Shown: piece by piece, positions 37,076 to 46,193 of the stretch | Layout: every line of letters begins with the position of its first letter | Numbering within the stretch: the first letter of the stretch is position 1 | Source: Nitrospirales bacterium | GTDB taxonomy: Bacteria > Nitrospirota > Nitrospiria > Nitrospirales > UBA8639 | DNA length: 64,000 nucleotides | Assembly (NCBI GenBank): GCA_029261355.1 | Contig: JAJDBM010000036.1 | Span: 62,001-126,000 of the forward strand | Reading direction: 5' to 3' | Position numbers and translations under genes: made by a program | Notes under the pieces: model-generated | What the model saw: only the letters and a program-made list of their open reading frames with translations | What the model was told of the DNA's origin: nothing | The model's database searches: none

Positions 37076-37390
37076 ATGTTTGTCACCAATATTGAAGATG
37101 TACCTGGGAAGACTATTACAGTCTGTCATGGGATTGTTTCAGGCAGCACAGTTCGAGCAAAACATATGGGACGGGACATCATGGCAAGTCTCAAGAATAT
37201 TTTTGGAGGGGAACTTAAAGGCTACACGGAACTCTTGGGTGAATCACGAGAACAAGCCATTGAACGCATGAAGGCACAGGCTCTACAAATGGGAGCAAAC
37301 GCCATCGTCAATGTCCGTTTTTCCACATCATCAGTCGCTGCAGGGGCAGCGGAAATTTATGTCTACGGAACAGCCGTAAACGTCGAGTAA
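37076..37390 (+). CDS. YbjQ-family (heavy-metal-binding domain) protein
   Basis: A 104-residue protein that matches the YbjQ/UPF0145 family along its whole length: ITVCHGIVSGSTVRAKHMGR, LKNIFGGELKGYTELLGESR, ANAIVNVRFSTSSVAAGAAE and IYVYGTAV. The family forms pentameric or decameric rings and is called heavy-metal-binding, though this is not proven in most members. AAAAGGAG lies before the ATG. A second, membrane-tethered copy and an M48 protease follow in the same direction. Confidence 0.92.
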   Translation: MFVTNIEDVPGKTITVCHGIVSGSTVRAKHMGRDIMASLKNIFGGELKGYTELLGESREQAIERMKAQALQMGANAIVNVRFSTSSVAAGAAEIYVYGTAVNVE

Positions 37391-37489: not shown

Positions 37490-37960
37490 ATGGAAAATAT
37501 TGCCGTTATCGTCATCCTGGTTTCATTGGGATATTTCTTTGGCAGAATGGCTGAAAATAAACATTATCAATCCATACGAGAACGAGAACAGGCCTTTCTC
37601 TCATTACCCACCACGTCGACCAAAAAACCTATGGGAAACATTGACCATATCAGTCATGTTCAACTGGTACATGGAAATGTTGTCATTTCAGTTGACTATT
37701 TCAAACGATTTCTGGCAACACTCAGAAACATCTTTGGCGGCCCGATTCAAGCCTATGAAACACTCCTGGACCGTGCAAGACGAGAAGCCGTGTTACGTCT
37801 CAAAGAAAGTTGCCCGGATGCCAATCAAATTATTAACCTCCGCCTCGAAACATCTTCAATTTCAAAAGGGGACAGCGAACGTATAGGATCGGTTGAAGTC
37901 CTAGCTTACGGAACAGCCATCTACCATCAGGACAGCAATGCTCAGGCTCCCATCCTGTGA
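37490..37960 (+). CDS. Membrane-anchored YbjQ-family protein
   Basis: A 156-residue protein: an N-terminal membrane helix (IAVIVILVSLGYFFG), a short linker, then a YbjQ domain diverged from its neighbour's (HVQLVHGNVVISVDYFKRFL, LRNIFGGPIQAYETLLDRAR, then VEVLAYGTAIYH). It faces the cytoplasm or periplasm next to the M48 protease, whose GTG start overlaps its stop (GTGA). The pairing of a free and an anchored YbjQ protein with an M48 protease suggests a membrane quality-control unit. Confidence 0.85.
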   Translation: MENIAVIVILVSLGYFFGRMAENKHYQSIREREQAFLSLPTTSTKKPMGNIDHISHVQLVHGNVVISVDYFKRFLATLRNIFGGPIQAYETLLDRARREAVLRLKESCPDANQIINLRLETSSISKGDSERIGSVEVLAYGTAIYHQDSNAQAPIL

Positions 37961-41458: not shown

Positions 41459-42079
41459 ATGGATCTCCAAACCATAGCCTCAAGTCAATTCATGCCCCAT
41501 GGAATGTGCTTCCTTTGGGAGCCGCTAGTATTATGGCTGCATGTGATCGCCGACACGTTGCTTGCCCTATCATATTTTTCGATCCCCATTGCGCTGGCAT
41601 ATTTTGCAATTACAGGGAGCAAAATTCCATTTTTTGCAGATCGTGGTCGAACTTTACAGTTCAAAATTCTTCTGGCGTTATTTGTGGTGATGTTTACGGG
41701 CTGTGCTCTTACCCACGCGATGGGAGTGTGGACCATTTGGCATCCAGATTATTTCGTCTCAGGACTCCTGAAGTTTATTGCTGGTGTCATCTCAATAGGC
41801 ACAGCCATCTTATTGTGGCCGATGGTTCGAAAATTCGTGAGTCTTCCCAATTTATATAGCCTACAAGAAGCCAACTTGACTCTTGAGCAAGAAATCCAAA
41901 GACGGCAAAAAATAGAACAGGATTTACGCTTGCGTACCGAAGAACTGAGCCAATCCAACAAGCAATTGACGAAAGCCAATCAGTATATGACCGGACGGGA
42001 ACTCAAAATGATCGAATTGAAAGGCGAGGTCAACGATCTCTCTCGAGCGTTGAATCAACCACTTCCTTACGAAGCATGA
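41459..42079 (+). CDS. Ethylene-receptor-like sensor domain protein without kinase
   Basis: A 206-residue protein. Three membrane helices (residues 20-115) match the ethylene-binding domain of plant ETR1 and cyanobacterial homologues. PHGMCFLWEPLVLWLHVIAD and ALSYFSIPIALAYF match helix 1, and FTGCALTHAMGVWTIWHPDY carries the copper-binding Cys82 and His86. A coiled coil follows (EANLTLEQEIQRRQKIEQDL, then LSQSNKQLTKAN) and the protein stops there, without GAF, kinase or receiver domain. Its stop overlaps the start of the next kinase gene (ATGA), so it most likely feeds that kinase through the coiled coil. Copper and ethylene binding are inferred from the residues. Confidence 0.88.
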   Translation: MDLQTIASSQFMPHGMCFLWEPLVLWLHVIADTLLALSYFSIPIALAYFAITGSKIPFFADRGRTLQFKILLALFVVMFTGCALTHAMGVWTIWHPDYFVSGLLKFIAGVISIGTAILLWPMVRKFVSLPNLYSLQEANLTLEQEIQRRQKIEQDLRLRTEELSQSNKQLTKANQYMTGRELKMIELKGEVNDLSRALNQPLPYEA

Positions 42080-44088
42080 TAGACGTTAAAAAAGTGGACT
42101 CCCAATTTTGTGAGGCTACTCGAGCTCCTAACGCGGAAATACCTCCCTCATGGTTGACGTTCTCAGCTCTGGGCCACAAGCTATTCTCCCTCGCCTTGAT
42201 ATTGCTGGCTGGGATCACTGATGCCTTGACTCCATTGGGAGTCGCAGTCGGCGTTCTCTATGTGTTGCCCATTATTTCCACGTTGCCACTCTACAATCCC
42301 ACGACAACGCGACTGATGGCTCTTACAACTATTAGCATGATTTTAACAGGATATTGGATATCTCCAGCAGGAGGTCTCTATTGGATGGTAATCACAAATC
42401 GCGTCCTGTCTATTCTAGCCGTGGGGGGGACTTACTTCATCGTTATACAAGCGATTCAAGCTTCTGAGACCTCAAAAATCATGAGTAAGATCTTGGAACG
42501 GGAACAAACAAAACAAACTGTGATTTTAGAGGAAAAGCATCGAGCCATGCTCAACTTACTCGAGGATTTTGCACAGGCTCGGAAGTGGATCGAGGAAAGT
42601 AAGGAACGATTTGATCTGGCTATTAGCGGGACGAATGACGGGATATGGGATTGGACTGATGTCACCAAAGATCATGAATGGTGGTCACCGCAATTATACG
42701 GTTTATTGGGGTATCAACCAGATGAATTCTCGCCATGTCGTTCCAAGTTCAAAGACATGCTTCACCCCGATGATCATGAGAGAACCTTTCAGCTTCTTCA
42801 GGACCACTTTGATAAGAATGAGCCATACGATATTGAATACCGACTACTGACGAAATCAGGCGACTACCGCTGGTTTCATGGACGGGGTAACACCCTGAGA
42901 GATAAGACTCGGCGTCCACTGAGGATGACTGGGTCAATTCAAGATATCACCACGCGGAAGGAAGCTGAAGATGCCTTCTTACAGTTGAATCGATATCATT
43001 CACTTATTCTCGCATCTGCGGGTGAAGGGATCTATGGCTTAGATCTCCAGGGAAAGAGCACGTTCGTAAATCCTGCTGCAGCGACAATGTTAGGGTATGA
43101 ACCAGAAGAGTTGATTGGTTGTCCGATGCATGTGACCATCCATCATACCAAACAGGATGGTTCACCCTACCCCCCCAAAGACTGTCCGATGTATATGGCC
43201 TATCGCGATGGATCAGTCTATCACGTCGAAGAGGAGGTCCTCTGGCGAAAAAATGGAACAAGTCTGCAGGTCGACTATACGAGCACACCAATTCGTGGTA
43301 AGCACAATGAACTTCTTGGTGCAGTGGTCGTTTTTAAAGATACAACCCTGCGCCACCAGGTAGAGGTTGAACGAGAGCAATTCATTTCCAAACTCGAACA
43401 AACCAATACAGAATTGGAACAGTTTACCTACACGGTCTCACACGATCTCAAGAGTCCCTTGGTGACGATTCGAGGGTTTATTGGATATGTGCAGAAAGGG
43501 CTCATCGAAAATAACAGAGAGCAGATAGAATCAGATTTGAAGCGCATCGACACCGCTGCCGAGAAAATGCAAATACTCTTAGAGAATTTACATGCACTCT
43601 CCCGTGTAGGAAAAGGCGTGGGTTCATTTGAAGACCTTGACCTACATGACGTGGCCCAAGAAGCACTTGAACTCACAACCGGATTTCTTGAACGAGGCTC
43701 GCACGTTCGAATCCATATATCTTCAGCCCTCCCAACAGTACAAGGCGATCGAATCCGTCTTGTAGAGCTGTTCCAAAATTTGCTCGAGAATGCATTCAAG
43801 TTTTTGGGACAACAGGTTAATCCGTGTATTGAAGTTGACGCCCGACAGGATGACGAAGCCCAAGTGATCCTTGTGCGTGACAATGGCATCGGAATTAAAC
43901 CAGCCTATCACACAAAAGTATTTGAGATATTCGAACGACTTCAGACAACAATACCAGGCACTGGAGTAGGCTTAGCCCTTGCCAAACGTATTGTCATGTT
44001 GCATCATGGCCGCATCTGGATCGAATCTGATGGGTACGGAAAGGGCACGACCGTGTGCATGATCATTCCGGTCAGCACGAAAGGTTAA
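42076..44088 (+). CDS. Membrane PAS-PAS sensor histidine kinase
   Basis: A 670-residue kinase. Residues 30-130 form about three or four membrane helices (LFSLALILLAGITDALTPLG, VGVLYVLPIIS, TNRVLSILAVGGTYFIVIQA). Then come a coiled coil, a PAS_3-type domain (AISGTNDGIWDWTD to IQDITTRKEAE), a second PAS domain (LILASAGEGIYGLDLQ) and HisKA with the phospho-acceptor histidine (FTYTVSHDLKSPLVTIRG). An HATPase domain ends it (LLENAFKFLG, DNGIGIKP, GTGVGLALAKRIV). It overlaps the ethylene-sensor gene and sits five bases before the hybrid regulator. It probably passes phosphate to the receiver domains encoded next. Confidence 0.92.
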   Translation: MIDVKKVDSQFCEATRAPNAEIPPSWLTFSALGHKLFSLALILLAGITDALTPLGVAVGVLYVLPIISTLPLYNPTTTRLMALTTISMILTGYWISPAGGLYWMVITNRVLSILAVGGTYFIVIQAIQASETSKIMSKILEREQTKQTVILEEKHRAMLNLLEDFAQARKWIEESKERFDLAISGTNDGIWDWTDVTKDHEWWSPQLYGLLGYQPDEFSPCRSKFKDMLHPDDHERTFQLLQDHFDKNEPYDIEYRLLTKSGDYRWFHGRGNTLRDKTRRPLRMTGSIQDITTRKEAEDAFLQLNRYHSLILASAGEGIYGLDLQGKSTFVNPAAATMLGYEPEELIGCPMHVTIHHTKQDGSPYPPKDCPMYMAYRDGSVYHVEEEVLWRKNGTSLQVDYTSTPIRGKHNELLGAVVVFKDTTLRHQVEVEREQFISKLEQTNTELEQFTYTVSHDLKSPLVTIRGFIGYVQKGLIENNREQIESDLKRIDTAAEKMQILLENLHALSRVGKGVGSFEDLDLHDVAQEALELTTGFLERGSHVRIHISSALPTVQGDRIRLVELFQNLLENAFKFLGQQVNPCIEVDARQDDEAQVILVRDNGIGIKPAYHTKVFEIFERLQTTIPGTGVGLALAKRIVMLHHGRIWIESDGYGKGTTVCMIIPVSTKG

Positions 44089-44093
44089 ACAAT

Positions 44094-46193
44094 ATGTTTC
44101 AAACATTTCAAGAAGTTGGCGCATTTCGCGTGTTAGTCATCGAGGATGATCTGGATCATGCTGAATTGATTCGACGAACGTTAACCGAACATCCAAGTCG
44201 TCATGAAATCCTCCATCTCACCGATGGAGAAGAAGCTCAAAACTTTCTGCGTCACATGAATTCAAATGATGAGTTTGCAATCAACTCCAGGCCTCATATC
44301 ATTCTTCTAGACCTACGACTGCCTAAAATTAGTGGCCATGACCTGTTATCAATGATAAAGGGATCCTCGTCCTTACAAACCATCCCCGTGATTATCTTAA
44401 CAACATCAAAAGCACCAGAAGACATGACTCAGGCCTATCTCGGGCATGCTAATAGTTTCTTGACTAAACCTCAGGACTTTGAAAGCTTTTCAACATTAGT
44501 GGAACTGATAGGGACCTACTGGCTTGACAAGAACGCTCACCTTTTGAGCCATTCTGAAGAGTCCAATACGATTCTGAATTCCCCAATCTCTCATAGAAAA
44601 ATACAGAAACGATGCTATTCCATTCTACTTGTTGAAGATGATGACAATCATGCTGAGTTAATCTGTCGAACCTTCAAAGAAAAATCAGACTCCTTTAACA
44701 TTAGACATGTCGCAAGCCTCGCACAAGCACGCGAATCAATTTCTGAATTTCTTCCAGAACTCATCATCATCGATTTTCGGTTACCTGATGGCGACGGACT
44801 GGAACTCATACCCCTGACAAAAGAAGAGGCTCCGTACCCCACTATCATTATCACCGGCCAAGGGGACGAAGATATCGCAGTTGAAGCCATGAAGGCTGGG
44901 GCACTGGATTATATCGTCAAATCACCAAACACCTTTGCCGATATACCAGAACTAGCGGAACGAACTATTCGGGAATGGGACGTCATGATGGAACGCAAAC
45001 GAGTCCACGAAGCCCTCCGACGTCGTGAACAACAAATCCGTCAGGCCCACAAAATGGAAGCCATTGGGACGCTCGCAGGTGGGATCGCACATGACTTTAA
45101 TAATATCCTCGCGGCAATCTTGGGGTTTAACGAAGTGTCCTTGCTCAAACTTGCCGAGGATCATCCAATCTATCGCAATTTGCTTGAAGTATCACGAGCT
45201 GGCCTACGAGCCAAGCAGCTTATTGAACAAATTCTCGTGTTTAGTCGTCAAACCAATGGACCGCGGCAACCAACCCTCTTGCATCGCCTCGTCGAAGAAG
45301 TGCTCCAATTGATCCGAGCGACGCTACCAGCAACCATAGAAGTTCGCACGAACCTACTGACAACATCGGGAACCATGCTCGCTGACTCCTCTCAAATCCA
45401 TCAAGTCTTGATCAATCTCTGTACGAATGCTGAGCAGGCGATGCGCATAAAAGGTGATACGTTGGAAATTACGTTGGAAGAAACCATGATTGACCTGGTC
45501 ATGACCAAGCAGTATCCGAGCCTACAACCAGGCCCACATCTGCGACTGACCATTTGCGATAATGGAGAGGGTATGTCATCTGATGTACTGGCTCACATCT
45601 TTGATCCTTTCTTTACAACAAAAGAAGTCGGGCAAGGGACGGGCTTGGGTCTTTCGGTTGCCCATGGCATTGTCAGCAGTCATCAAGGAGCGATTACAGC
45701 CCAAAGCGAAGTCGGCCAAGGCAGTACATTCACCATCTATTTTCCACAAGTTGAATCTGCTCTCGAGACACCCCCTGACCGAATGTTACCCTACACCACA
45801 TTGGAAAAGAGACACATTCTATTTGTGGATGATGAAGAACCTCTTGCTCAACTAGGCAAAACCACATTGGAACACTTTGGATATGAGGTGACGATTCGAA
45901 CGAGTAGCCTTGAGACATTAGCAGAATTTCTCACAACCCCTAACAAATACGATTTGGTCATCATGGACCAAACGATGCCAAAAATGACAGGGGAAACTCT
46001 CGCAATAAAACTCCTCAACATTCGACCGAATCTACCCATTATTCTGTGTACAGGTTTTAGCCATGTCATGACGCCAGAACGTGCGACTGCATTAGGAATC
46101 CAAGGGTATCTCGTCAAACCGATTCTGCCTCAAGACTTAATCTGGAAGGTTAATCAACTGCTGGGTAACGCAAACGATTTCTTCACTTCTTGA
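44094..46193 (+). CDS. Hybrid kinase REC-REC-HisKA-HATPase-REC
   Basis: A 699-residue protein from the ATG at 44094. First receiver: VLVIEDDLDHAELIRRTL with IILLDLRLPKISGHDL (Rcp1-like); second: ILLVEDDDNHAELICRTF with LIIIDFRLPDGDGLELI. Then a NtrB-like kinase (GTLAGGIAHDFNNILAAILG, NLCTNAEQAMR, FDPFFTTKEVGQGTGLGLSV). A third receiver ends it (ILFVDDEEPLAQLGKTTLEH, DLVIMDQTMPKMTGETLA). No DNA-binding or cyclase output is present, so its effect must pass to another protein. It is the last gene of the ethylene-sensor operon. Confidence 0.92.
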   Translation: MFQTFQEVGAFRVLVIEDDLDHAELIRRTLTEHPSRHEILHLTDGEEAQNFLRHMNSNDEFAINSRPHIILLDLRLPKISGHDLLSMIKGSSSLQTIPVIILTTSKAPEDMTQAYLGHANSFLTKPQDFESFSTLVELIGTYWLDKNAHLLSHSEESNTILNSPISHRKIQKRCYSILLVEDDDNHAELICRTFKEKSDSFNIRHVASLAQARESISEFLPELIIIDFRLPDGDGLELIPLTKEEAPYPTIIITGQGDEDIAVEAMKAGALDYIVKSPNTFADIPELAERTIREWDVMMERKRVHEALRRREQQIRQAHKMEAIGTLAGGIAHDFNNILAAILGFNEVSLLKLAEDHPIYRNLLEVSRAGLRAKQLIEQILVFSRQTNGPRQPTLLHRLVEEVLQLIRATLPATIEVRTNLLTTSGTMLADSSQIHQVLINLCTNAEQAMRIKGDTLEITLEETMIDLVMTKQYPSLQPGPHLRLTICDNGEGMSSDVLAHIFDPFFTTKEVGQGTGLGLSVAHGIVSSHQGAITAQSEVGQGSTFTIYFPQVESALETPPDRMLPYTTLEKRHILFVDDEEPLAQLGKTTLEHFGYEVTIRTSSLETLAEFLTTPNKYDLVIMDQTMPKMTGETLAIKLLNIRPNLPIILCTGFSHVMTPERATALGIQGYLVKPILPQDLIWKVNQLLGNANDFFTS

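Follow-up and report, generated by a model that had tools for sequence, protein, structure and literature searches.

An ethylene-receptor-type sensor encoded apart from its neighbouring kinase in Nitrospirales, and a pair of short elements that may join stand-alone sensors to histidine kinases

Ethylene receptors are textbook single-chain receptors. We analysed a 64,000-nucleotide stretch of DNA from a Nitrospirales bacterium (assembly GCA_029261355.1, contig JAJDBM010000036.1, positions 62,001 to 126,000 of the forward strand; hereafter the window), in which an ethylene-receptor-type sensor, ORF1, is followed by a separate gene for a membrane histidine kinase, ORF2. The occurrence of one short element, T, on ORF1 and other stand-alone sensors and of a matching element, P, on the neighbouring kinases suggests a general means of attaching sensors to kinases. 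The closest described receptors, SynEtr1 of Synechocystis and AzoEtr1 of Azospirillum, share the three-helix ethylene/copper domain with ORF1. AzoEtr1 is a single chain of ethylene-binding domain (EBD), PAS domain and kinase with an adjoining response regulator gene, a neighbour it has in common with the window system (accessible part of PMC11819568). Whereas AzoEtr1 carries PAS and kinase domains on the sensory chain, the window encodes a T-tailed sensor and, separately, a kinase with its own membrane region; ORF1 has neither the HisKA nor the HATPase_c domain of the SynEtr1/AzoEtr1-type kinases.

Two other described systems resemble the locus in part. NosP binds the kinase NosK and inhibits its autophosphorylation (accessible part of PMC12570481), and the NosP-NosK/NahK systems, like the window, encode a separate gas-sensor protein beside a kinase; the window genes are joined by an ATGA overlap and the pair is kept in 8 genomes. 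A FIST gene of the NosP type also lies within two T operons (L105 and L120). The systems differ in both partners: NosP is a heme protein built on a FIST domain, and no sensory domain is recognised in NosK, whereas the window sensor is of the copper type, sits in the membrane and bears T, and its kinase has membrane and PAS domains. The S-helix described by Anantharaman, Balaji and Aravind (accessible part of PMC1592074) resembles T and P in being a short, conserved coiled coil through which sensor and kinase communicate; it connects two domains of a single chain and is marked by an ERT signature at its centre. That signature is absent from the T and P alignments, and an identification with the S-helix was rejected on this ground; T and P are also mostly on separate chains.

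The detached sensor and its conservation

ORF1 (41459 to 42079, plus strand) encodes 206 residues without a kinase domain. Residues 24-128 (41528 to 41842) match the Pfam family ETR1_N with an E value of 1.4e-25 and 89.9 bits against a cut-off of 27. No other family exceeds its cut-off, so the protein has neither a FIST nor an H-NOX domain, and ORF1 is the sole ETR1_N match in the 4.63-Mb window genome. A preliminary description of this DNA had placed the ethylene/copper domain alone on the first protein; its placing of all three genes is confirmed, and the lack of any HisKA or HATPase match in ORF1 agrees with it. Hydropathy gives three hydrophobic spans, and an AlphaFold2 model (7 sequences; mean pLDDT 72.2, pTM 0.42) has helices at residues 22-52, 66-94 and 98-126, followed by a single helix of 67 residues (132-198) that runs nearly to the C-terminus and makes the C-terminal coiled coil proposed earlier plausible.

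The copper ligands of ETR1 are Cys65 and His69, acting with Asp25 and Lys91 (roles from the accessible part of PMC11819568). Their counterparts in ORF1 are Cys82 and His86, within the motif CALTH, and Asp32 and Lys105; ORF1 probably holds Cu(I) through the Cys and His. The other ethylene-binding residues of ETR1, which we take to be Tyr32, Ile35, Pro36 and Ile62, are matched in ORF1 by Tyr39, Ile42 and Pro43, but Phe79 stands at the presumed Ile62 position, as Phe does throughout the window lineage (the window genome G000, with G225 and G226). The ligand would be ethylene or copper. That copper or another small ligand is sensed, and not ethylene, is a serious possibility that we place somewhat short of even, and it is compatible with a two-subunit receptor: the Cys/His copper site is kept alongside the Phe substitution, and this analysis identified no source or use of ethylene. 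On the other side, every other nameable ethylene-binding position is retained, and a GST fusion of AzoEtr1 residues 1-130 binds ethylene in yeast (accessible part of PMC11819568), so that binding by a detached domain is possible in principle.

A search with the ETR1_N profile in 235 Nitrospirales genomes returned 14 matches in 13 genomes, eight of which are short detached proteins with the same tail, found in 8 of the 235 genomes from five genera and two families (G000, G206, G214, G215, G221, G225, G226 and one of two G022 copies). The nearest named relatives of ORF1 are in metagenome-assembled genomes labelled Nitrospirales, at 69-71% identity. In all eight systems the next gene on the same strand is a kinase, or a readable kinase start, with P, and T and P are separated by 440-469 bases. 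Pfam finds HisKA and HATPase_c in the window kinase and in the five relatives with a whole gene (6/8); the remaining two, one cut by a contig end (G206) and one with its frame cut short (G226), were judged from the start of the protein. By eye, the partner kinase has its own membrane region in each of the seven relatives read.

The remaining six matches lack the detached layout. Three are single-chain kinases (G114, the second G022 copy and G063); by reading, G014 is an EBD-HisKA_3-REC protein (L027) with most of the HATPase missing, G061 is a fused EBD-kinase gene (L026) with a frame shift inside the kinase, and G006 is an EBD-HATPase chain without either copper ligand. The G006 protein (L032, 9081-10037), which also has Asn in place of the key Asp and is joined to the end of an HATPase_c domain, is probably a degenerate receptor. 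In the fused copies L025 (G063), L026 and L027 the conserved Pro that follows Ile is replaced by Ser (IIS or LIS versus SIP).

The detached sensor genes are under purifying selection where measured: the ratio of nonsynonymous to synonymous differences per site (pN/pS) of ORF1 is 0.25 against G225 and 0.22 against G226, and the corresponding rates (dN/dS) are 0.033/0.218 between the G226 and G225 genes. A single gene split by a sequencing error, the case named in the preliminary description as fatal to a detached sensor, is excluded by three features: ORF1 is closed by a conserved tail and does not break off in mid-domain, ORF2 begins with its own membrane domain, and the relatives have the same two genes. 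The G061 gene is an example of what a frame break does to a fused EBD-kinase. Among 349 Pseudomonadota genomes, ETR1_N has 27 matches in 24, of which 26 lie in open frames of at least 401 residues and one is a 48-residue fragment; no short protein with the tail is among the 27, and the sole T match in these loci (about 3.3 kb per locus, plus strand) has an E value of 0.011. The literature searched, which included the accessible parts of PMC11819568, PMC7700396 and PMC5285503 and did not extend to two surveys of microbial ethylene receptors (Papon and Binder; Small Methods 2019), contained no description of a detached EBD or of a Nitrospira ethylene receptor.

Matched elements on sensors and kinases

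The detached sensors align well over their last 50 residues (alignment A1); the consensus of T is NRxxxGRExxMIELKxEINxL. In ORF1 this element spans residues 158-206 and takes in the C-terminal coil and the tail (41930 to 42076; core GRELKMIELKGEVNDL), and it is the only T match in the window genome. That the coil ends in an element common to unrelated sensors went unremarked in the preliminary description. The A1 profile, searched in 231 Nitrospirales genomes, recovered T on proteins other than ethylene receptors, namely CheB-CheR-PAS proteins (G113 and G037) and a 998-residue protein (G033), each with T at its end and with a P-bearing gene coming next; these were added to A1 to give alignment A2.

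In Pseudomonadota the A2 profile matched 68 places in 47 of 349 genomes, all of which were fetched, as 62 loci. Re-reading them gave 37 genes with a C-terminal T and 26 with an internal T only. Pfam families in 36 of the 37 C-terminal T genes (the second gene of L140 was left out) include PAS_4 (25), GAF_2 (10), PocR (6), HAMP (4), MHYT (2), SBP_bac_3 (2) and dCache_1 (1), and HATPase_c is not among the 25 of 26 families listed. The inputs that bear T include ethylene/copper, MHYT, PAS, GAF, PocR and solute-binding domains. At several loci (L099, L100, L101, L111, L124 and others) an internal T runs, by eye, directly into a PocR-like sensory domain and not into P.

The second segment, P (alignment A3; consensus AxLNL[LM]ED), is common to the kinases that adjoin T genes. 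ORF2 (42076 to 44088, plus strand) begins inside the ORF1 stop codon. Three to four hydrophobic spans (approximately residues 27-128) precede its two PAS domains, HisKA and HATPase_c; ATGA junction, hydropathy and Pfam agree with the earlier account of a coupled kinase with its own membrane and PAS domains. Its P element, residues 149-180 (42520 to 42615; core RAMLNLLEDF), lies between the membrane region and the PAS domains and is the only P match in the window genome (profile match at G000:C36:104523-104615, window positions 42523-42615). P immediately precedes the phosphoacceptor domain in several Pseudomonadota partners and comes after a receiver domain in G037; it occurs on HisKA_3 as well as HisKA kinases.

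For each C-terminal T gene we took the next gene, or the one after it where a short gene intervened, as the partner candidate (L096 was re-read in a longer frame). The 37 genes yielded 32 candidates, the rest being at a contig end, without a next gene in reach or in a shared operon. HATPase_c was found in 28 of them and HisKA in 28, and P matched 22 at an E value of at most 0.05, four of which (L097, L104, L126 and L154) had contributed rows to the profile, with three more weak matches. On an alphaproteobacterial plasmid, a solute-binding sensor ending in T is joined by an ATGA overlap to a hybrid kinase with P. The intervening genes scanned encode NMT1-type or Peripla_BP_4 binding proteins, FIST proteins and an ODP-family protein. 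A binding-protein gene of the NMT1 or Peripla_BP_4 type lies between T gene and kinase at L102, L110, L115, L117, L121 and L132 (scanned with Pfam at L102, L115, L117 and L132), which suggests three-subunit sensors. At L105 (4201-5370) and L120 (3841-5010) a FIST-domain gene of the NosP type separates T gene from P kinase, and the described NosP-kinase systems may likewise rely on P. One gene following a T gene (L058, 2513-3475, in G175) starts with two tandem P elements about 22 residues apart.

P was searched independently of T in all three genome samples. The window genome contains a single T and a single P, with 447 bases between them. Across 231 Nitrospirales genomes, T occurs in 15, P in 15 and both in 12, and 13 of the 17 P sites are downstream of T on the same strand; with the nine genomes that supplied P rows removed, three of six P genomes have T. 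The hypergeometric probability of the latter is 2e-4, a value that, like those below, is too small because relatedness among genomes is ignored, so it is the adjacency counts that carry the argument. In Pseudomonadota, T occurs in 47 genomes, P in 21 and both in 20 of 349 (1e-18), or 16 of 17 P genomes once four source genomes are removed (3e-15), and 27 of the 29 P sites are 67-3463 bases downstream of T. A further sample of 118 Nitrospirota genomes, in which no P genome gave profile rows once G000 was left out, has T in 22, P in 10 and both in 10 of the remaining 117 (7e-9), with 10 of 11 P sites downstream of T. The matched segments on sensor and kinase therefore extend well beyond the window locus, as the T/P adjacency in the Pseudomonadota and Nitrospirota samples indicates. 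Kinases are common in bacteria while P is rare, occurring in just 21/349, 15/231 and 11/118 genomes, and we therefore rejected plain coiled-coil similarity as the source of the matches. No Pfam family covering T or P appeared in the output for the proteins scanned, profile searches of the PDB gave chance matches only, and the motif strings retrieved nothing relevant in the literature searched, two papers matched by a P string being judged unrelated by title.

Nine of the 26 internal T cases, by eye, continue on the same chain into a P-like LAALSLAEDAExAR sequence, no more than about 75 residues away (L103 and, with support from the P profile, L123, L138, L142-L145, L147 and L148). T and P can therefore neighbour each other in one protein, and it is between the two that the detached systems have their gene boundary. 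Distances among T sequences also correlate with those among P sequences (Mantel tests, 0 of 5000 permutations in each case), with r of 0.68 over all pairs (n=30), 0.75 within Pseudomonadota (n=20) and 0.85 within Nitrospirota (n=10); 30 of the 35 listed pairs were used, five being dropped where the pattern missed one side. Two genomes with two systems each, G262 and G309, keep their pairings apart, L096 grouping with L097 and L113 with L112 in both T and P. Such co-divergence and separate pairing would be expected from docking and also from inheritance as an operon.

Proposed coupling of sensor and kinase

From the sequence evidence above, we consider it probable that ORF1 and ORF2 are the two subunits of a single receptor, with T and P as the coupling between them. 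ORF1 would be a membrane sensor with three helices of the ethylene-receptor type, in which ethylene, or copper itself, would act at the copper site and change the conformation of the helix bundle. The change would travel along the long C-terminal helix to T, an output plug predicted to pair as a coiled coil with P of ORF2. Since P sits between the membrane region of the kinase and its PAS domains, the two membrane inputs, ORF1 and that region, would converge there, and the pairing of T with P would set HisKA autophosphorylation of ORF2. Phosphate would then pass to the receiver domains of ORF3 or to other regulators. T/P pairs are found in Nitrospirota and Pseudomonadota at least. By a narrower measure of confidence, we lean towards T and P as a plug and socket of general use, a portable element in two parts that would join unrelated stand-alone sensors in trans to histidine kinases, with the ethylene-type sensor of the window as one of many interchangeable inputs.

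Several observations weigh against this reading. P is absent, by its profile, from 7 of the 32 partner candidates, and 17 of the 26 internal T copies have no P nearby, most of them running into another domain that is PocR-like by eye; T can therefore feed other domains too. Some P elements, in G040 and G245, have no T nearby. Alignment A3 was built mainly from T-adjacent genes, so that co-occurrence in the source genomes arises partly by construction, and the Mantel result is no proof of contact, because linked genes co-diverge by inheritance. In the four congeneric genomes ETR1_N has no match, and the Phe at the presumed Ile62 position belongs on the same side.

T and P might instead stem from one ancestral sensor-to-kinase linker at which the genes were split, the genes staying linked while the proteins act separately or are coupled indirectly, for instance through the membrane region of the kinase. 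We regard this as unlikely, though the nine single chains with T and then P-like sequence fit it, simple co-inheritance also predicts linkage and co-divergence, and the kinases of the EBD systems keep a membrane region of their own. A free end without a partner would be expected to drift, yet T and P stay recognisable although the sensors and kinases differ, with T on unrelated sensors and P on kinases of both phosphoacceptor families. It is very improbable that ORF1 is a functionless leftover, the sensory part of a fused ethylene receptor whose kinase was lost. Fused EBD kinases (L023, L024, L025) and degenerate EBD genes (L032 without both copper ligands, the frame-broken L026) do occur in the same order, but ORF1 combines pN/pS of 0.22-0.25 at 69-71% identity with retention of Cys, His, Asp, Tyr and Pro, and the same tail and next-gene kinase are conserved in five genera.

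The third gene and the wider meaning

ORF3 (plus strand) most likely starts at the ATG at 44094 and ends at 46193; the open reading frame list gives a GTG at 44055. Its three Response_reg matches with HisKA and HATPase_c bear out the REC-REC-kinase-REC order reported earlier, and it is a probable phosphorelay partner of ORF2. The gene after the kinase varies among the relatives, being a single REC protein, a REC-kinase or several RECs, and a conserved three-gene order was rejected on this ground. The preliminary description had joined a detached sensor and adjacent kinase to this third gene: the first part stands, as a layout conserved in 8 of 235 genomes and with matched T/P elements beyond the locus, and the three-gene unit does not, the REC-REC-kinase-REC protein being local to the window. 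Elsewhere in the window, and bearing no relation to the finding, two adjacent similar small proteins (37076-37390 and 37490-37960; YbjQ-like by eye) are encoded alongside a metalloprotease-like gene.

With the sensory part as a free subunit, ligand binding and kinase control become separable for study. If T and P dock, many entries annotated as output-less "PAS domain protein" or "substrate-binding protein" would be sensor subunits of the kinase next door, the pairing of sensor and kinase would be readable from sequence, and the pair would be directly testable in vitro. As a docking code, the T/P pair would mean more than the novelty of the window system alone.

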